Origin: Pelodictyon luteolum DSM 273
GTDB taxonomy: Bacteria; Bacteroidota; Chlorobiia; Chlorobiales; Chlorobiaceae
NCBI RefSeq assembly: GCF_000012485.1
Contig: NC_007512.1
Span: 435,001-499,000, forward strand
Direction: 5' to 3'
DNA: 64,000 nucleotides
Part shown: piece by piece, positions 46,638-55,883 of the stretch
Layout: each line of letters begins with the position of its first letter
Numbering within the stretch: position 1 is the stretch's first letter
Notes under the pieces: generated by a model
The model's database searches: none
Told to the model about the DNA's origin: nothing
The model's input: the letters and a program-made list of their open reading frames with translations, nothing else
Position numbers and translations under genes: made by a program

Positions 46638-47170
46638 ACTTCTTCTTCATTGTCCGGAAGGGGGCTTCGGCCCCCGCTACCGGGCATGAGTACCTGCAGT
46701 GTCTCCCGGATCTCCTCCCACATGAACCCCCTTCCCTGCAGGAACCGCACCAGTTTCTCCTTCTCCCTCACCCCCGGTGAGCTCCCAAGTGCTCGCATCT
46801 TTTTTTTTGCTGCTTCCAGACACGGCGCGGAAGTGTCGTGACTCTTGAGCAGCACGTCGATGATGGCGTCACTGATGCCTCGTTTGCGGAGTTCCATCCT
46901 GAGCTTCATCCGCCCGGCCTGTTTCATGCGGCTGCGACTTCTGAGGAACTCTTCGGCAAACGCACGGTCGTCAATGAGCTTCAGCTCCTTGAGCCGCTCA
47001 ATCGCACCTGCGATGTGCGCGCCCTCAAATCCTTTTTTCTTGAGTTTCGTCTCAAGTTCCATCTGGCTGTGACTGCGGAGCCCGAGGAGTTTGAATGCGT
47101 GGGCCGAGGCGAGGCTCTGGGAACTTTCCAGTGCGGCCTGTCCCCGTGGAGCATTCCTCCTACTGTACAT
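46634..47170 (-). CDS. recX: RecX regulatory protein
   Basis: RecX (178 residues from the ATG at 47170) modulates RecA filaments. The three helical repeats are visible: [41 protein letters not shown] with a preceding helix, and the final [21 protein letters not shown] longer in-frame start exists but would lie within bchQ. At 47170 the gene overlaps the bchQ end by 11 bases, so its translation is probably coupled to bchQ. The pairing of a DNA-repair modulator with a pigment gene looks accidental but may affect expression. Confidence 0.85.
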
Positions 47171-48560
47171 TCTGGAGACTTTCGGGGGTAACGTTGTGTG
47201 TTGCCTCGAAGGCATTGAGCTCCGAGTTGAGGTGGTGGCGGAAGGCGAGGTTTGTGATGAGGTTGATCACTTTTTTCGGGTTGTGCCAGATCCTGCCGAT
47301 GATATGGCGCCATGAGTAGATGGCGGCGTAGCTGGAGAGCACCTTGTACTGGAACAGCACGGGGTCGTAGCGCTCGGACTTGATGACGAGGTGCAGGGCG
47401 TTGTATTTCTCCCAGTCCTCGATGGTGATGAGTCCGTCGCGCTTGTAGTCCAGATACATCTGCGTTCCCGGGTAGGGGGTGATGATCTGGAAGATGGGCA
47501 TGAAGATGTGGTTTTTCTCGACAAACCGGACCAGTTCGTCGATATCCTCGAAAGTGTCGATAGCGGGGTTGAAGAGAAAGTTGCCCTGGATGTTCAGTCC
47601 CGCTCTGCGGCAGTCCTCAATGATTTTAGAATACTTCTCGGCTGAGTTGACGTGCCCTTTGTTGTATGCCTCCAGAGTGCTCTGCTTGATGGACTCAAGC
47701 CCGGCAAGCACGAAGTTGCAGCCTGCATCGACCAGCTTTTTGACGGTCTGCGGGTCTTCGAGAAAGTTGATGGAGAGAAAGACGCTGAATGTGATGTCGC
47801 ACTCTTTGAGAAGGTCGAGGGCTTCCCAGAGCTTTTTCTGGTTGATGCCGAGGTTTTCATCGGTGAGCATGAACCAGGGCTTTTTGGAACTGCTGCTGGC
47901 TTTGAAAAAGTATTTCTTCGCCTCCTCGACCTGCGATTTCAGCGACTCGGCTTTCTGGGCGCGGTACTGTTTGCCGGTGAAATTGGGGGTTACGCAGAAT
48001 GAGCAGTTGAACGGGCAGCCCCGGGTGACGTAGATCGGGATCGACTTGGTGCCGTCGACTTTCCCCCGCTTCGAGGAACGCGAGATGCGGGCGTAGTCTA
48101 TCGGCACGATCTCCTTCACGGGAGGATATTGCTTGGAGTCATAGAGCGGTTTGAGTGCTCCGTTTCCGACATCGTCAATGAGCGATGCCCAGAGGTTGTC
48201 AGCCTCCCCGACGACGATGCTGTCAGCGTGGATTGCGGCTTCTTCGGGGTTGAACGAGATGTGCAGTCCACCGAGCACGACCTTCTTTCCATGGGCACGG
48301 AAGGTATCGGCTATCTCATAGGCACGGGTTGCCTCAAGGGTGCGCGAGGTGATGCCGACGAGGTCGTAGTCTCCGTCGTAGTCGATGGAGTCGTGGAAGT
48401 GCTCATCGACCATTTCGATGTCGTGCTGCGGGGGCGTGAGGCTCACGAGCACGGCAAGCGCCATGTGGAAGAGCGGTTTCTGGTTGCTGTCGTCGTCCAT
48501 TTTCCCCTGGGGCGAGACCAGAAGGATCTTCAGGGGGCGGGTTGTGATTGTTGCTGGCAT
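47160..48560 (-). CDS. bchQ: Radical SAM/B12-domain methyltransferase, probable bacteriochlorophyllide C-8 side-chain methylase
   Basis: This 466-residue protein has an N-terminal cobalamin-binding-like domain (about 10-125; [34 protein letters not shown]). A radical SAM domain follows, with the [4Fe-4S] motif CxxxCxxC at Cys182, Cys186 and Cys189 in [12 protein letters not shown], and later ENLGIN and [10 protein letters not shown]. This is the BchE-like class that includes BchQ (C-8 side chain) and BchR (C-12) methylases of green sulfur bacteria. BchQ is preferred because the gene is back to back with a BchV-type hydratase and near a RuBisCO-like gene, as I recall for C. tepidum CT1777/CT1776/CT1772. 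BchR remains possible on sequence alone. Confidence 0.78.
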
Positions 48561-48774
48561 CTGGTCCTGTTGGGAATCTCAGCGTTGAAGAAACTGTGCG
48601 ATATCCGGGGAAGCCGGTGCCGGATCTCCCCTCAGGATGCACCCTGACAGAGGATGGCTTGAACATTTAATTTAGGTGAATTTTCTAAAAAAAAAAGTGG
48701 GAGGGGGCTCTTGGAGCCGTAATTTATTTCCCCCTCTGGGAGGTATCGCCATTCTTTTTCCCTAGGGGGGATTT

Positions 48775-48784
48775 TGCTATATTC
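48775..48784 (+). promoter_or_regulatory. Extended -10 element upstream of the bchV-like gene
   Basis: TGCTATATTC contains the extended -10 form TG-n-TATATT, about 45 bases before the ATG at 48829. No good -35 is seen. The rest of the 268-base gap between the divergent bchQ and bchV genes is G- and T-rich, with an A10 run near 48688; no gene is visible there. Confidence 0.4.
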
Positions 48785-48828
48785 CTTGCTTTGAGTTTTG
48801 CCGCCACCAGTCACCACTCTATTATTTT

Positions 48829-49299
48829 ATGCCTCGTTACACTCCGGAGCAGCTGGCCAAGAGGAACGCCTCGATATGGACCGACATACAGATCATTCTT
48901 GCGCCCATCCAGTTCATCATTTTCCTTACCGGCGTCTCGGTGACGGCGCTTTACCTCAACGGGATCATCACCTCTTTCTACTGGGTGAGCCTTGCAATCC
49001 TCTTCAAGACCCTCTTTTTTGCCCTGCTCTTCGTGACGGGGATGTTCTTCGAGAAAGAGATTTTCGACAAGTGGGTCTACTCGAAAGAGTTTCTCTGGGA
49101 GGACGTCGGCAGCACCATCGCTGCGGCATTCCATCTGCTCTACTTTGTCATGGCGTGGATGGGTTACCCCGAGGAAGTGCTGGTGTGGGAGGCGTTTCTG
49201 GCCTACTTCACCTACGTCATCAACGCCCTGCAGTATCTGGTGCGCATCATCCTTGAGAAGCACAACGAACGCAAACTCCGCATGGGCGGCCATATCTGA
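48829..49299 (+). CDS. bchV: 3-vinyl bacteriochlorophyllide hydratase, BchF/BchV family
   Basis: This 156-residue membrane protein hydrates the C-3 vinyl group of chlorophyllide intermediates to a hydroxyethyl group. The family start [17 protein letters not shown] and the motifs [25 protein letters not shown] and FLWEDV are present, with about four membrane segments. Green sulfur bacteria have two paralogues, BchF and BchV, with different stereochemical preferences on methylated substrates. I choose BchV because the gene is adjacent to bchQ, as recalled for C. tepidum CT1776; sequence alone would not exclude BchF. Confidence 0.8.
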
Positions 49300-49304
49300 T
49301 TATC

Positions 49305-49529
49305 ATGATGCAATACAGTTTCACGAAGCTCTGGAACCTTACGTTTCTTTTTGTCGCGCCCTTCTGGTTCACCCTGGTCTGGATGATCTGGTCCTCGGGC
49401 CAGCTCGCAACGGACGCTGATCGGGCGGTCTTCGCCCTGTTCGTGGTGCCGGGGTTCCTCGTCATCTACCTTTCAGGTTTTCTCATTGAGGGCTGGCACA
49501 AAAAGAAAAAATCGCAGTCTGCCCGGTGA
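49305..49529 (+). CDS. Small two-span membrane protein of unknown function
   Basis: The 74-residue product (ATG 49305 or 49308) starts six bases after bchV. It has two hydrophobic segments (about 10-30 and 40-60) and a Lys-rich C-terminus (HKKKKSQS), giving a hairpin with a probable cytoplasmic tail. No family is recognised. Tight spacing to bchV suggests co-expression, so a role near pigment enzymes in the membrane is possible. Confidence 0.6.
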   Translation: MMQYSFTKLWNLTFLFVAPFWFTLVWMIWSSGQLATDADRAVFALFVVPGFLVIYLSGFLIEGWHKKKKSQSAR

Positions 49530-49568
49530 GGGGGCGCTGCCATCCACTTAAATTAAGCGGGAGTCTCC

Positions 49569-51674
49569 ATGCAGAACCTCTGGAATGACAGCGATGTATT
49601 GAACCCGGCAGTCGGGCAGGAGATGCCCCGGGAGCTTTCGGAACTGGTTTACGCTTCCCGACTGCTCGGCCGTGAGAGCTCTCTGGTGATGCACGGCGGC
49701 GGGAATACCTCGGTCAAATCCCAGCTGCACGACTTCATCGGCAATGGGGTCAATGTGATTTTTATCAAGGGAAGCGGAGTCGATTTGGCCGACGTCCAGG
49801 CGCACGACTTCACCCCGGTACGCATCGACCCTCTCCAGAAACTCCAGCATCTCTACGCCACCGGTGAACGGAAGAGCGATGAGGATATCCAGAGGTTTTC
49901 AACCAGGGAGTTCAAGCATTTTCTCTATCTGAACCTGTTTCACCTGACCGACCACATGGTGAGCAACGCCCTCACTCCCTCGATCGAGACGCTGCTCCAC
50001 GCGTTCCTTCCGCATCGCTTCATTTTTCATACCCACTCGCTCGCCTTTCTGACACTCTCGAACCAGCCGGAGGGAGAGAAGCTCTGCGGGGAGGTGCTCG
50101 GCGACGGGTTCGGTTCCGTGCCATATATCAAGCCCGGCCTTGGCCTGGCCCGCCATGCAGCAAAGGCTTTCGCGGCTGATCCGGCCATCCGGGGCCTGGC
50201 GTTGCACAAGCACGGCCTTGTCACCTTCGGCGACACCGCCCGCGAGGCCTATGACCGCATGATAGAGGCTGTCAGCGTCCTTGAATCAAGAATCGCCGCG
50301 AAGCCGCGGGGCGTGTTTCCAGCGGCGCCGCTTCCAGCATCCCTTCCTCCGGTTGAGGATGTCGCGCCAATCATCCGCGGTGCCTGCGTCGAGGAGAAAG
50401 AGCCGGGCACGAAGGACTATGACCAGTTCATTCTGGACTTCAGGAGCTCCGGCCGGGTCCTTGAATATGTCAACAGCAGGAATCTTTCGGAAATGAGCCG
50501 CAAGGGTGCGATGACCCCCGACTTCATCGTCCGGACAAAGAACCGTCCGCTTGTCCTTCCGGCTCCCGATGCCGTTGACATGGATGGATTCAAAACGGCG
50601 GTCCACGAGGCCGTCCGGCAGTACCGTGCGGACTACGAAGCATACTTTACGGAGCAGAAGGCCGCTTCCGGCAGCGAAGCCGGGATGCTCGACTCACTTC
50701 CTCGCGTCGCCCTCGTGCCGGGCATCGGCCTCTTCGGCCTCGGCCGGACGGCGAAGGCGGCCCGCGTCAACGCAGACATCGCCGCCGGCAGCGCCGCTGC
50801 CATCCTTGATGCCGAGTCGATTGGCACGTTCCGCTCGATTACCGACCGGGAGGCATTCGACATCGAGTACTGGGAAATGGAGCAGGCCAAGATGCAGAAA
50901 GTCCGCCATCTTGCGTTTGCCGGCAAGGTCGCCATGGTCACCGGCGGAGCCGGCGGCATAGGGCTTGCCACCGCGAAGGCGTTCAAACAGAAGGGCGCGG
51001 AAATCGTGCTGCTCGACCTCCATATGGATGCGCTCGAACGGGCGGCCGAAGAGCTCGGAGGAGACGTGCTCGCAATGGCGTGCGACGTCACCGACCGCAA
51101 TGCGGTGCGTGCGGCTTTTCATGCGGCATGCCGCCGGTTCGGCGGTGTGGACATCATCGTCTCCAATGTGGGTGCCGCACTGCAGGGCCGCATCGGCGAG
51201 GTTCCCGACGAGGTGCTCCGCAAGAGTTTCGAGTTGAATTTCTTCTCCCATCAGTCGATCGCCCAGGAGGCGGTAAGGGTGATGAAGCTCCAGGGAACCG
51301 GCGGAGTCCTGCTCTTCAATGTCTCGAAGCAGGCGGTCAACCCGGGCCCCGATTTCGGCCCGTACGGCCTGCCGAAAGCTGCAACCATGTTTCTGGTCCG
51401 CCAATATGCGCTTGACCACGGCCGCGACGGCATCCGGGCCAACGGCATCAACGCCGACCGCATCCGCAGCGGCCTTCTCACGCCCGAGATGATCAAGGCT
51501 CGCTCGGCGGCCCGCGGGCTCAGTGAGCGGGAATACATGGCCGGCAACCTCCTCCAGCTGGAGGTAACGGCCGAGGATGTCGCCGAAGCGTTCGTCCATC
51601 TTGCGCTTGAAAAGCGCACCACCGGTTCGATTACGACGGTCGACGGAGGCAATATCGCAGCGGCGCTCCGCTGA
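49569..51674 (+). CDS. Bifunctional class II aldolase / short-chain dehydrogenase (RhaD-RhaE-like)
   Basis: This 701-residue fusion has an N-terminal class II (zinc) aldolase domain and a C-terminal SDR domain. Aldolase features are the phosphate-binding HGGGNTSVK (His42), Glu140, the metal pair His154/His156 in FHTHS and a further His215 in HKHGLVTFG. SDR features are the NAD-binding TGGAGGIGLA near residue 458 and YGLPK (YxxxK) near 599. Relatives cleave a ketose 1-phosphate such as rhamnulose-1-P to DHAP plus lactaldehyde and then oxidise the aldehyde. CGGGAG precedes the start. It heads a run with a second aldolase, the RuBisCO-like protein and another SDR. The true substrate in Chlorobi is unknown. 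Confidence 0.88.
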   Translation: MQNLWNDSDVLNPAVGQEMPRELSELVYASRLLGRESSLVMHGGGNTSVKSQLHDFIGNGVNVIFIKGSGVDLADVQAHDFTPVRIDPLQKLQHLYATGERKSDEDIQRFSTREFKHFLYLNLFHLTDHMVSNALTPSIETLLHAFLPHRFIFHTHSLAFLTLSNQPEGEKLCGEVLGDGFGSVPYIKPGLGLARHAAKAFAADPAIRGLALHKHGLVTFGDTAREAYDRMIEAVSVLESRIAAKPRGVFPAAPLPASLPPVEDVAPIIRGACVEEKEPGTKDYDQFILDFRSSGRVLEYVNSRNLSEMSRKGAMTPDFIVRTKNRPLVLPAPDAVDMDGFKTAVHEAVRQYRADYEAYFTEQKAASGSEAGMLDSLPRVALVPGIGLFGLGRTAKAARVNADIAAGSAAAILDAESIGTFRSITDREAFDIEYWEMEQAKMQKVRHLAFAGKVAMVTGGAGGIGLATAKAFKQKGAEIVLLDLHMDALERAAEELGGDVLAMACDVTDRNAVRAAFHAACRRFGGVDIIVSNVGAALQGRIGEVPDEVLRKSFELNFFSHQSIAQEAVRVMKLQGTGGVLLFNVSKQAVNPGPDFGPYGLPKAATMFLVRQYALDHGRDGIRANGINADRIRSGLLTPEMIKARSAARGLSEREYMAGNLLQLEVTAEDVAEAFVHLALEKRTTGSITTVDGGNIAAALR

Positions 51675-51722
51675 ACCCAGTTCCAGCACCACCATACCAA
51701 CTGCAAACAGGAGACCACCATC

Positions 51723-52604
51723 ATGGCTGAATACGATAAGGACAAGCAGGCCAAAGAGTATTACACCGACATTCCGGTGAACAACTACGGCTTTTTCCTC
51801 AAGGGTGCGCACTCGCTCGACTGGGGCATGAAAAACCGCCTGTCGCGCATTTTCCGTCCCGATACCGGCAAGACCGTGATGTTCGCCATCGACCACGGCT
51901 ACTTCCAGGGCCCGACCACCGGCCTTGAGCGTCCTGACGTCAACATCGTTCCCCTGATGCCGCATGCCGATGCCATCATGCTTACCCGCGGGATTCTGCG
52001 CACAACCGTGCCCCCGTCCCTTACGAAGGCAGTCGTCATGCGCTGCAGCGGCGGACCGAGCATCCTGAAGGAGCTTTCCGACGAGGAGCTGGCTGTAGAC
52101 ATTGAGGACGCCATCCGCATGAACGTTGCCTGCATCACCCTGCAGGTCTTCATCGGCGGCGAGTACGAGACCCGCTCCATCAAGAACATGACCCGGCTCG
52201 TCGACATGGGCCTGCGCTACGGCATCCCCACGATGGCGGTCACCGCCGTCGGCAAGGACATGGTCCGCGACGCCAAGTACTTCCGGCTCGCCACCCGCAT
52301 TTGCGCCGAACTCGGCGCTCAGGTTGTCAAGACCTACTATGTCGAGGAGGACTTTGATACCATTGTCGCCTCCTGCCCGGTGCCTATCGTCATGGCCGGC
52401 GGCAAGAAGCTGCCCGAAAAGGATGCCCTCGCCATGTCGTACCGTGCCATTCAGGAAGGCGCTTCCGGCGTGGACATGGGTCGCAACATCTTCCAGAGCG
52501 ACTATCCGCTTGCTATGATGAAGTCGGTCAACCGGGTTGTGCATGAGGGGCTCACTCCCGACGAGGCATTCGAATACTTCAACTCGATCAAAGGCGAGGG
52601 CTGA
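51723..52604 (+). CDS. DhnA/LsrF-type class I aldolase family protein
   Basis: This 293-residue TIM-barrel protein resembles DhnA-type class I aldolases and LsrF, which processes the phosphorylated AI-2 breakdown product. Features are [11 protein letters not shown] near residue 45, the probable Schiff-base Lys near 204 in [22 protein letters not shown] and the phosphate-binding end [18 protein letters not shown] lies well placed before the ATG. It follows the aldolase-SDR fusion by 48 bases and precedes the RuBisCO-like gene, with a hairpin between. True thiolase versus aldolase chemistry cannot be decided here. Confidence 0.87.
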
Positions 52605-52626
52605 GCCTTTTTGCCTCTTGGCTGCG

Positions 52627-52652
52627 CGGGGCTGATGCCCCGGCATTTTTTT
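52627..52652 (+). terminator. Hairpin between the aldolase and RuBisCO-like genes
   Basis: A 6-bp stem CGGGGC/GCCCCG with a TGAT loop is followed by GCATTTTTTT. The short stem suggests partial termination, so the RuBisCO-like gene may be expressed at a different level from the aldolases. Confidence 0.6.
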
Positions 52653-52696
52653 AACGGGAACCCCCGGGGATGCGAGAGGGGGATGAAGCTTTGCTA

Positions 52697-53998
52697 ATGA
52701 ATACTGATGACATCAGGGGCTTTTTCGCCTCCAGAGAGCAGCTCGACATGGCTGATTACCTGACGCTCGAGTACTATGTCGAGTGTGTGGGGGACATCGA
52801 AACGGCGCTCGCTCATTTCTGCAGCGAGCAGTCGACTGCTCAGTGGCGCAGGGTGGGCCATGACGAGGATTTCCGGCCGAGGTTCGGGGCCAAGGTCATC
52901 GGACTCCAAATCGAAGGTGAGCTCGAGCAGCTGAGCTATCCCGTCCAGCATTCAGAAACGGGGCCCATCCATGCATGCCGGGTCACCATTGCCCATCCCC
53001 ACCGCAATTTCGGCCCGAAACTGCCTAACCTGCTTACCGCGGTCTGCGGGGAAGGGGTGTTCTTCACTCCCGGTATCCCGGTGGTGAAACTGCTTGACAT
53101 CACGTTTCCCGAACCCTATCTCAACGCGTTTGATGGACCGAAGTTCGGCATTGAGGGGATCCGCGACCTTCTGAAGGCTTATGACCGACCGATCTTTTTC
53201 GGCGTCGTCAAGCCGAACATCGGGCTCAGCCCGGCACATTTCGCCGAGATTGCCATGGAGAGCTGGCTCGGGGGGCTTGACATCGCCAAGGACGACGAGA
53301 TGCTTGCCGATGTCGAATGGTCGACCCTTGCCGAGCGTTCACGTGAGCTCGGACTTGCCCGCATAAGGGCCGAGAAGGAGACTGGCGAGCCGAAAGTCTA
53401 TCTGGCCAACATAACTGACGAGGTCGGTTCCCTGAAGGAGCAGCACGATGTGGCGGTCCGTAACGGCGCCAATGCGCTGCTCATCAACGCCCTTCCCGTG
53501 GGACTCAGCGCCGTGCGCATGCTGGCCGCCTACACCAAGGTTCCGCTGATCGGTCATTTTCCCTTCATCGCGGCCTTCAGCAGGATGGAGAAGTACGGCA
53601 TCCACTCGCGGGTGATGACCAAGCTGCAGCGGCTTGCGGGTCTTGATTCCATCATCATGCCCGGCTTCGGCAGCCGGATGATGACGCCCGAAGAGGAGGT
53701 GAAGGAGAACATCGCCGAGTGCCTTCAGGACTTCGGACACATCCGTCGCTCCCTGCCGGTTCCCGGTGGCAGCGATTCCGCCCTTACGCTTGAAACCGTT
53801 TACCGGAAGGTCGGCAGCGTTGACTTCGGCTTTGTTCCCGGCCGCGGCATCTTCGGCCATCCCATGGGCCCGAAAGCCGGGGCGGCCAGCATCCGACAGG
53901 CCTGGGATGCCATTGAAAAGGGGGTGTCGCTTGAACGTTACGCTGAAGGCCATCCGGAACTTGGTGCCATGGTTGCCGGTGCCCGCCGGAGTCATTGA
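52697..53998 (+). CDS. RuBisCO-like protein (form IV, Chlorobi type)
   Basis: The product (433 residues from the ATG at 52697; an in-frame ATG at 52670 would add nine) is a RuBisCO-fold protein of the photosynthetic Chlorobi RLP group. Lys172 in [10 protein letters not shown] corresponds to RuBisCO Lys175, but the next Lys (177) is Asn. The carbamylation and metal-site motif is kept as [10 protein letters not shown] (Lys198, Asp200, Glu201). Loop 6 lacks its catalytic Lys and reads PGFGSRM. The SGG phosphate site reads PGGSDS, and GGGTLGHP reads PGRGIFGHP. It therefore should not fix CO2; an enolase- or isomerase-type reaction is more likely. In C. tepidum, loss of RLP is reported to disturb sulfur metabolism and cause oxidative stress. 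Confidence 0.95.
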
Positions 53999-54015
53999 TT
54001 TTTTAGGGGGGGCTG

Positions 54016-54840
54016 ATGCAGAAGCTTGATGGCAGGGTCACGGTCATCACCGGATCGACAAAAGGAATCGGCAATGCCATTGCGCATGCGTTCGTCCGTG
54101 AGGGGGCTAAGGTTGTCATCACCTCTTCATCCGAGCCGAATGTCCGCCATGCTCTTGATGCTTTTCCTGAGGGTACGGCATTGGGTTTCCGCTGCGACGT
54201 CACCTCACCGGCGGAGGTGGAGCGCCTCCTGGAGGCTGCTGTAGAGCGTTTCGGCCGCATCGACTGCTTCATCAACAATGCGGGGATTTCCGATCCATTC
54301 CAGAGCCTTGCCGAAAGCGACCCCGATCTCTGGGGCCGCGTGATCGACACCAACATCAAGGGGACATACTACGCAAGCCGTGCCGCCATCCGCTATTTTC
54401 TCCAATTCAACCCGAACGGCAAGCTCATCAACATGGCAGGTTCGGGGACCGATCCTCAGTCGAACACCCCGTGGATAAGTGCCTATGGCTCCACCAAAGC
54501 CGCCATAGCCCGCTTCACCCGTTCGGTAGCCGCCGAATACAGGCACACCGGCATGTCAATCATGCTGCTCCATCCGGGCCTCGTGCGCACAGCGATGGTG
54601 AGTCCTTCTGAGCCTACTGCCGAACTGCTGAAACAGCTCCATACCTTCAATACGGTGCTTGATATCTTCGCCCAGCCACCCTCTGTTGCCGCCCGACTGG
54701 CCGTGAAGATGGCTTCGGAGTGGAGTGACGGCCGGACCGGGATATACCTTTCAGCCCTTGGCAACTGGAGAAAAAAAAGGTTGCTCCTGAGCTTTCCCTT
54801 CCGTAAAATGTTCAACAGGATTGATCGAAGAACTTATTAA
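54016..54840 (+). CDS. Short-chain dehydrogenase/reductase downstream of RLP
   Basis: This 274-residue SDR has the cofactor motif TGSTKGIG near residue 12, NNAG near 93 and the catalytic YGSTK (YxxxK) near 157, with PGLVRTAM following. AGGGGGG precedes the ATG, 17 bases after the RLP stop, so the two are surely co-transcribed. Its C-terminal 25 residues are strongly basic with hydrophobic positions (WRKKRLLLSFPFRKMFNRI), which could give peripheral membrane contact. Substrate is unknown; it probably acts on the product of the RLP/aldolase pathway. Confidence 0.88.
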   Translation: MQKLDGRVTVITGSTKGIGNAIAHAFVREGAKVVITSSSEPNVRHALDAFPEGTALGFRCDVTSPAEVERLLEAAVERFGRIDCFINNAGISDPFQSLAESDPDLWGRVIDTNIKGTYYASRAAIRYFLQFNPNGKLINMAGSGTDPQSNTPWISAYGSTKAAIARFTRSVAAEYRHTGMSIMLLHPGLVRTAMVSPSEPTAELLKQLHTFNTVLDIFAQPPSVAARLAVKMASEWSDGRTGIYLSALGNWRKKRLLLSFPFRKMFNRIDRRTY

Positions 54841-54857
54841 CCCGAAGGGACTGTGCC

Positions 54858-55358
54858 ATGCTGAAGATCGCTGTCGCGAGGGTGCTTTTCCTCCCGCTTC
54901 TCTTCCTGCTCCTCTTCATCGGGGGGTGCTACAGCCTGACAGGCGGTTCCATACCGCCGCATCTCAAAACGGTTGCCGTTCCCGTATTTGCCGGCGGCAG
55001 CGAGTACAGGGCCGACCTTACCCGGGCGTTGAGCGGGAAGATCGAATCTGAAAGCAGTCTCCAGGTCGTCAATTCCATCGCCCGCGCCGACGCGCTCATC
55101 GAGGGAAGCATCACATCCTGGTCCGATACCGCCAACCAGCTCTCAGCCACTACCGAGCGCGCCGCCACCAACCGGATCACCATCGTCGTCCAGGTGAATA
55201 TGGACGACAGGGTGGAGAAGCGGTCGGTGTTTGCAGAGCAGTTTGTCGGTTTTGCCGATTACACCACCGGTGATTACCTCGGCCAGCAGCGGGCTCTTCG
55301 TTCCTGCATGCAGCAGATCGTCGATGAGGCTTTTGACCGGATTGTATCCGGCTGGTAA
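54858..55358 (+). CDS. LptE-type LPS-assembly lipoprotein
   Basis: This 166-residue lipoprotein has a signal peptide ending in the lipobox IGGC (Cys24). The mature part resembles the Bacteroidetes/Chlorobi LptE family (YSLTGGSIPPHLKTVAVPVF; LTRALSGKIESES; ADALIEGSITSW). LptE plugs the LptD outer-membrane channel that inserts lipopolysaccharide. It starts 17 bases after the SDR gene and may be read from the same message. Confidence 0.82.
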   Translation: MLKIAVARVLFLPLLFLLLFIGGCYSLTGGSIPPHLKTVAVPVFAGGSEYRADLTRALSGKIESESSLQVVNSIARADALIEGSITSWSDTANQLSATTERAATNRITIVVQVNMDDRVEKRSVFAEQFVGFADYTTGDYLGQQRALRSCMQQIVDEAFDRIVSGW

Positions 55359-55432
55359 AGGGGATTTTTTCAATTTCAATCAACGGGCCGGAGAGAGGGT
55401 GCATCATCACTCCTGCGGCCGGGGAGGATAGA

Positions 55433-55879
55433 ATGGGTTTGCATGAAGATGTAGGTTACCGTCTCAATCTTGCCGGAGGGTTCCTGAAAGAGGCGGAACA
55501 GGATTTCGGGCTCAGCCGCTGGCGCTCATGCACCGCCGGCTCGGTGCTGGTCGTTGAAAACGCCGGCATTGCGGTGCTTATGCTCTTCGGCGTGTCACCT
55601 TCGACCCACAAGCCGGGCATGCACCTCTCGCAGCTGCTCTCGGAAGGAACCCTAGAGCGCAAGGCCGCCGAGCTGATCGAAGAGCTGCTTCCGATGTTCG
55701 AGCAGCATGACTCGCATGAAAAGATGCTGGCCAAGTACGGCGATGAGGCCGGATGCCGCCTTCCCTGGGAGATTTTCGGTGAGCCGGAGGCATCGGCTGC
55801 ACTCGATGCCGCCCGGAAAGCCGTTCGGATCGCGAGTGACCTTGCAGCCATCGTGCTGCCAAAAGACATGAAGAAGTGA
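55433..55879 (+). CDS. HEPN-like helical protein of unknown function
   Basis: The 148-residue product follows a clear GGGGAGG ribosome binding site. The first 60 residues ([16 protein letters not shown] ... [22 protein letters not shown]) have the helix pattern of HEPN domains, with the rest also helical. I do not see the R-x4-6-H RNase motif of toxic HEPN proteins, and no MNT nucleotidyltransferase partner is adjacent. It lies between lptE and rfbA, five bases before rfbA. A structural or binding role is as likely as a toxin role. Confidence 0.6.
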
Positions 55880-55883
55880 TTTG

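Follow-up and report, generated by a model that had tools for sequence, protein, structure and literature searches.

MtnW, the diketo-methylthiopentyl-phosphate enolase of methionine salvage, carries a metal triad and takes a ligand with a single phosphate; the RuBisCO-like protein (RLP) described here has the same triad and is predicted to bind a ligand of this type. Two RLPs of the Photo clade of type IV, which occurs in anaerobic phototrophs, have solved structures, that of C. tepidum (1TEL, 1YKW) and RLP2 of R. palustris (2QYG). The superfamily also includes the DeepYkr RLPs, represented by R. rubrum RLP and R. palustris RLP1, which act in the MTA-isoprenoid shunt and convert 5-methylthioribulose-1-phosphate to 1-methylthioxylulose-5-phosphate (PMC5893883, available text); their substrate is a methylthio sugar, and a cupin has to take off the thiol. 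On the same sugar no activity of R. palustris RLP2 could be detected, according to the available text of PMC5893883. The same text states that deletion of RLP2 lacks the pleiotropic phenotypes of the C. tepidum mutant, and this 2018 paper calls for further experiments (PMC5893883, available text).

The window considered here is a whole stretch of 64,000 nucleotides from Pelodictyon luteolum DSM 273 (contig NC_007512.1, positions 435,001 to 499,000), and it contains an RLP gene (Table 1) that is the only match in the source genome (2,364,842 bases, one contig). The translated frame has its sole stop at its end; an ATG at 52670 is a possible earlier start, and the start was set at Met 52697 because the C. 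tepidum RLP chain aligns from there. Over the aligned length the protein is 78% identical to the C. tepidum RLP (773.6 bits for 1TEL, 771.8 bits for 1YKW) and 69% identical to R. palustris RLP2 (664.7 bits for 2QYG). Given 773.6 bits to 1TEL and a single match in the genome, the similarity is not due to chance. The host is a chlorophototroph, as judged by BchF, the sole marker searched, whose family is found both in the window and in the genome. By sequence it is a straightforward ortholog of the C. tepidum RLP and R. palustris RLP2 within the known Photo clade: its identity to both is high over the full length, the carbamate lysine and metal ligands are kept, and the columns of RuBisCO K177, R295, H327, and K334 are changed. 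Ordinary sequence divergence is the only difference seen from these two proteins, which have the same fold and the same unusual active-site features; these features belong to the clade, and nothing in them is special to the source genome.

The first-pass annotation had pointed to a superposition on the C. tepidum RLP and the MtnW enolases as a check, and a model predicted from 23 aligned sequences fits both. The best model has a mean pLDDT of 86.5 and a pTM of 0.87 (the other four have mean pLDDT values of 73 to 83), with pLDDT below 50 at residues 202-204, directly after the metal triad. As a superposition of folds, it fits 1ykw with a Z score of 52.7 (rmsd 1.6 over 411 residues), 2qyg with a Z score of 51.6, and the MtnW enolase 2oem with a Z score of 42.2 (rmsd 2.6 over 397 residues, ~27% identity).

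Residues of the RLP were mapped by alignment onto form I RuBisCO (L113) and other RuBisCOs, using spinach numbering and a list of 19 active-site residues. Nine of the 19 are kept: E60, W66, K175, K201, D203, E204, H294, G380, and G403 of RuBisCO are E44, W50, K172, K198, D200, E201, H287, G358, and G382 in the RLP. The other ten are changed (T65 to Q49, K177 to N174, R295 to F288, H327 to I320, K334 to R327, L335 to M328, S379 to G357, G381 to S359, G404 to R383, and N123 to E119, the last with an adjoining gap that makes its placement uncertain). None of the 19 positions varies across the 82 ortholog rows, apart from I320 (81 Ile, one Val). These rows comprise the window protein (P0001) and 81 of 83 loci; L019, whose match contains a stop, and the partial L066 were left out, and L067 and L112 are the same gene, counted twice. 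Within the motifs singled out by the first-pass annotation, other residues (S326, S361, and I385) vary among the orthologs.

As that annotation had stated, Lys198, Asp200, and Glu201 match the RuBisCO activation site, Lys172 is retained, and the lysine following it is replaced by asparagine, N174 lying in the K177 column; the segment GGLDIA-K198-D199-D200-E201 is present in the translation, so that the metal/carbamate triad is intact at the level of sequence. Its remark that loop 6 has no lysine is right as well, but it missed that the K334 column holds an invariant arginine, Arg327. The two phosphate loops are altered in the way it described; they are not newly rewritten here, being fixed across the orthologs and present already in the solved structures, and the description overlooked the change of G404 to Arg383 and the loss of the second-phosphate site. 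In RuBisCO the second phosphate of RuBP is bound by R295, H327, and S379, whose columns contain F288, I320, and G357 in the RLP. On the first-phosphate side W50 and G382 are kept and two arginines are gained. Because the second-phosphate site is lost, the ligand of the RLP is likely a mono-phosphate with an uncharged far end. Thus, the observations of the first-pass annotation hold, and its interpretation, enolisation without carboxylation in an altered phosphate pocket, is partly right but is already embodied in known proteins. OiaX (3-oxo-isoapionate-4-phosphate decarboxylase) also aligns at the metal triad; however, the RLP scores 208.4 bits against a cut-off of 700 for the OiaX model NF042437, and the OiaX of L115 still has Arg and Lys in the two columns (R295 and K334) that are F288 and R327 in the RLP.

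Table 1. Features of the RLP gene and its surroundings, in window coordinates.
Feature	Position	Strand	Basis
B12-binding radical SAM protein, divergent from the bchF-family gene	47160..48560	-	Pfam Radical_SAM over cut-off; B12-binding just below
BchF-family 2-vinyl bacteriochlorophyllide hydratase	48829..49299	+	TIGR02020, 204.6 over cut-off 101.35
Bifunctional class II aldolase / short-chain dehydrogenase	49569..51674	+	NF006193, 1383.6 over cut-off 1213; Aldolase_II and adh_short
LsrF-type class I aldolase/thiolase	51723..52604	+	NF006081, 517.4 bits over cut-off 297; LsrF structures, E 2.8e-121
Terminator-like hairpin and T run, between lsrF-like gene and RLP	52627..52642	+	Pattern match only
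RLP, Photo clade of type IV (433 aa)	52697..53998	+	
K172-P173-N174 (RuBisCO K175-P-K177)	53210..53218	+	Alignment
Carbamate Lys198 and metal ligands Asp200, Glu201	53270..53299	+	Translation, alignment
R327, invariant Arg at RuBisCO K334 (loop 6) column	53675..53677	+	Alignment
G357-G358-S359-D360 (RuBisCO S379-G380-G381 loop)	53765..53776	+	Alignment
G382-R383-G384 (RuBisCO G403-G404-G405 loop)	53840..53848	+	Alignment
Short-chain dehydrogenase (SDR), 17 nt after RLP	54016..54840	+	
LptE-like outer-membrane protein	54858..55358	+	

The arrangement of genes around the RLP is conserved in Chlorobiaceae. Among 66 loci of this family (L002-L066 and L068, from the best 80 of 199 relatives), the SDR gene lies 3' of the RLP in all 66, and an LsrF-like gene and the aldolase-SDR fusion lie 5' of it in 65 and 60, respectively; where either is missing, the contig ends at most 655 nt upstream of the RLP. 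The median gaps are 121 nt between lsrF and RLP (62 loci), 55 nt between aldolase and lsrF (58 loci), and 27 nt between RLP and SDR (65 loci). The hairpin in the lsrF-RLP gap of the window (CGGGGC-TGAT-GCCCCG followed by a T run) is of a kind found at 8 sites in the region, little in excess of the 6.6 found in shuffles. By a strict test, such hairpins occur in the lsrF-RLP gap of 21 of 62 loci (mean 9.2 and maximum 15 in 20 shuffles) and in 0 of 58 and 1 of 41 for the other two gaps, which are shorter; by a loose test, for which there is no control, they occur in 45 of 62. As a family-wide feature, a terminator between lsrF and the RLP is suggestive only. Given that the widest gap and the terminator-like hairpin precede it, the RLP may start its own transcription unit. 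No tandem repeats were found at 47000-58000.

The neighbouring aldolases, which had been put forward as a guide to the substrate, are weakened in this role, since they adjoin the RLP only in Chlorobiaceae among the loci examined and since the terminator-like hairpin in the window separates lsrF from the RLP. Neither a homolog of LsrF (E<=0.001) nor the aldolase fusion (E<=1e-30) was detected in any of the eight proteobacterial RLP genomes searched or in G005. The aldolase-SDR and lsrF pair lies on a contig other than that of the RLP in G083 (L110), and in G060 a second copy of the pair lies near a bchF copy (L111).

A different neighbour marks the RLP outside this family. In all 16 distinct non-Chlorobiaceae loci examined, a YjbQ/UPF0047 gene ends between -4 and 180 nt before the RLP; these loci are 14 among the best 80 of 199 relatives (one from Chloroherpetonaceae and 13 proteobacterial), that of G005, and one on a Thiodictyon plasmid, L112 repeating L067. 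In Chlorobiaceae the two genes stand apart, by about 41 kb in the source genome and by more than 1 Mb in G052, G063, and G102. The YjbQ gene of the source genome (G000:C1:529101-529499) scores 113.3 with TIGR00149, over a cut-off of 67.75. In a tree of 50 rows from 52 loci (L145 and L147 had no match and were left out), the 22 RLP-adjacent rows, which are 16 genes with six counted twice, fall on one side of a branch with support 88/79, and together with nine Chlorobiaceae copies they form a 31-row group with support 83/94; both branches are below the level that the tool stars, and the tree carries a long-branch warning. Members of the group reach, at best, 50-66% identity to the Chloroherpetonaceae YjbQ, and the YjbQ paralogs that matched have about 29-38% identity to either query. 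An occurrence of the YjbQ group on plasmids was considered and set aside: of 63 matching plasmid records, 62 have less than 60% identity, and the gene neighbours considered were those of one of the eight best matches.

The Chlorobiaceae copies of YjbQ are next to an isoprenoid gene. In all nine Chlorobiaceae examined, one of which (G056) has no RLP, dxs is the next gene downstream on the same strand, with a gap of up to about 590 nt, and an amylase-like gene lies upstream, so that the three genes make up a conserved block (L154-L158, L169-L172); the Dxs of the source genome scores 771.1 bits over a cut-off of 465.95. In both Chloroherpetonaceae seen, the order is YjbQ, RLP, and then a distant relative of the amylase-like gene (1.8e-35 and 1.8e-33). 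In both Chromatiaceae seen, idi flanks the YjbQ-RLP pair beside puf genes, after the RLP in Thiorhodococcus (L074) and before YjbQ in Thiodictyon (L114). Queries with dxs, idi, puf, bchZ, and crt gave no match in the Rhodopseudomonas or Ectothiorhodospira loci.

Across the 98 genomes of the order, the RLP is found in 82, in a few of them as fragments or with a stop (G163, G166, G169, G175), LsrF (E<=1e-60) in 78, and BchF in 94. In G169 (C47:198801-200091) the RLP match falls into two overlapping parts and contains a TGA, which may reflect a pseudogene or a faulty assembly. When only genomes with a completeness of 90% or more and a contamination of 5% or less are counted, the RLP is present in 66 of 74; the eight that lack it are G056, six genomes of family f3, and G212, all of which have BchF. 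Family f3 lacks both RLP and LsrF in 9 of 9 genomes at the thresholds used and has no YjbQ of any kind in the four genomes tested; we presume that this family may be the aerobic Thermochlorobacter line. That line is described as the one aerobic chlorophototroph of its phylum in the available text of PMC5972617. The 99%-complete Chlorobium genome G056 lacks the RLP, LsrF, and the aldolase fusion and keeps the YjbQ beside dxs. One of its bchF-family copies, on contig C7 (L108, 2975-3435), matches in two pieces, and the aldolase-lsrF-RLP block is not beside it. A linkage of the RLP to sulfur (dsr) metabolism was also considered and rejected: G005 and G083 have the RLP and no DsrA match, G056 has DsrA and no RLP, and within the order the RLP does not track DsrA. 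MtnA, present in all 25 genomes tested, every RLP-less one among them, is for that reason uninformative as a discriminating partner.

Taking the active site and the YjbQ partner together, the RLP would be an enolase-isomerase that works with Mg2+ and a carbamylated lysine on a ketose carrying one phosphate, and would not carboxylate. As our preferred reading, though one that falls well short of probable, we tentatively put forward that it converts 5-deoxyribulose-1-phosphate to 1-deoxyxylulose-5-phosphate (DXP) for isoprenoids. The proposed source of the sugar would be 5'-deoxyadenosine, which radical SAM enzymes, among them the anaerobic cyclase BchE and the B12-radical-SAM methylases, release as a by-product; anaerobic phototrophs should form much of it through these enzymes. 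A B12-radical-SAM gene borders the RLP cluster in the window; it scores above the cut-off of no NCBIfam model and is, we presume, perhaps the bacteriochlorophyllide methylase BchQ. The same first enzymes that serve the methylthio route would turn 5'-deoxyadenosine into 5-deoxyribulose-1-phosphate, a compound made by MtnA (PMC10986504, available text). The RLP would then move the carbonyl from C2 to C4 through two enolisations and so yield DXP, the first isoprenoid precursor. This would be a methylthio-free version of the R. rubrum RLP reaction, with the same carbonyl migration as in the DeepYkr route and the same end at DXP. YjbQ would act as a partner, perhaps sorting epimers or removing an inhibitory product.

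The neighbouring genes of Chlorobiaceae would provide alternative outlets for the same sugar, one through the class II aldolase to DHAP and acetaldehyde, the other through a dehydrogenase and LsrF to DHAP and acetyl-CoA. The second outlet is suggested by the LsrF substrate, 3-hydroxy-5-phosphonooxypentane-2,4-dione: judged by its chemical name, it corresponds to 5-deoxyribulose-1-phosphate, and equally to DXP, in the 4-dehydro form; this relation would explain why LsrF is found in genomes without LuxS (0 of 13 searched). The LsrF-type thiolase of the window gives a strong match although its genome has no LuxS match. Every step from substrate to product in this scheme is one that we infer.

Several findings speak against the conversion to DXP. 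RLP2 reportedly does not act on the methylthio analogue and its loss does not reproduce the phenotypes of the C. tepidum mutant, G056 breaks the pairing of YjbQ and RLP, the two genes are far apart in Chlorobiaceae, and dxs and idi have no match in the Rhodopseudomonas and Ectothiorhodospira loci. In addition, idi beside photosynthesis genes may reflect only the company of a pigment cluster, without a shared reaction.

Of the competing explanations, the one that fares best gives the RLP a different ketose with one phosphate as its substrate; the enzyme might, for instance, work with YjbQ in chemistry related to the thiazole of thiamine or to vitamin B6, or else take part in sulfur metabolism. 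That thiazole is built from DXP, and YjbQ owes its name to a secondary activity as thiamine-phosphate synthase; the few neighbours that were identified, however, include no named thiamine gene, and the independence of the RLP from dsrA (G005 and G083 versus G056) opposes the sulfur variant. This broader reading is quite possible, if still short of an even chance. A role in methionine salvage, either as an enolase like MtnW or as a 5-methylthioribulose-1-phosphate isomerase of the DeepYkr kind, has the shared fold (2oem), the presence of MtnA, and older in vitro work with a small conversion by RLP2 (as cited in the available text of PMC5893883) in its favor. Yet the RLP scores far below the MtnW cut-offs (NF007095, 196.5 against 409; TIGR03332, 153 against 513.6), and the available text of PMC5893883 assigns to RLP2 neither detectable methylthioribulose-1-phosphate activity nor a role in MTA metabolism, which makes such a role unlikely. 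Slightly less credible still is a phospho-DPD-type isomerase that would replace LsrG, converting 4-hydroxy-2,3-pentanedione-5-phosphate to the LsrF substrate, with the Chlorobiaceae cluster degrading AI-2-like sugars. Moving the carbonyl in this way would be RuBisCO-like enediol chemistry, and an LsrF-type thiolase adjoins the RLP and is conserved with it in Chlorobiaceae; but an AI-2/LsrG-like role is weakened by the absence of LuxS from all 13 genomes, by the RLPs that occur without an LsrF homolog in G005 and the eight proteobacterial genomes, and by the aldolase-lsrF pairs that lack an adjoining RLP, namely the one of G083 and the second copy of G060. That the RLP is a carboxylating RuBisCO is next to inconceivable, since, despite a match to the RuBisCO_large Pfam family and the intact carbamate/metal triad, the K177, R295, H327, and K334 columns are changed in 82 of 82 ortholog rows, ten of 19 active-site residues (the loops included) differ, and the curated cut-offs for RuBisCO forms I-III lie far above its scores (TIGR03326, 220.6 against 497.45; NF003252, 203.2 against 438; NF010002, 131.4 against 489).

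To return to the conversion of 5-deoxyribulose-1-phosphate to DXP by the RLP, keyword searches of CC-licensed texts, which are no proof of absence, found neither a proposal of this step nor a link of the YjbQ-RLP pair to isoprenoid genes. The deoxy sugar is not mentioned in the main text of PMC5893883, and the step is not proposed in the available text of that paper or of PMC10663253, PMC10986504, PMC4958253, PMC6079011, PMC8102628, and PMC12632272. In their available text, PMC6302742 names aldolase and dioxygenase fates only, and PMC13142503, on BchE, mentions deoxyadenosine only in passing.

In its fullest form, which is rather doubtful as a whole, the RLP and a dedicated YjbQ subfamily would constitute a second, Dxs-independent entry to isoprenoids that salvages the 5'-deoxyadenosine of pigment synthesis to DXP, with the aldolase and dehydrogenase-LsrF genes of Chlorobiaceae serving as an overflow to DHAP, acetaldehyde, and acetyl-CoA. 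What the present analysis adds to the known clade is the link of YjbQ to dxs and idi and the single assay that this link suggests: the pairing of YjbQ with the RLP in two phyla, and the position of the same YjbQ group on dxs, replace a blind ligand screen by one assay. The gene neighbours that the RLP has in other species suggest a testable job for it, recycling a discarded sugar phosphate into the precursor from which carotenoids and the tails of pigments are made. If true, this would give a function to the RLP, to its YjbQ clade, and to LsrF in organisms that lack LuxS; it would tie the handling of radical-SAM waste to isoprenoid supply in anaerobic phototrophs, such that waste from making the pigment ring would feed the isoprenoid tail of the same pigment.
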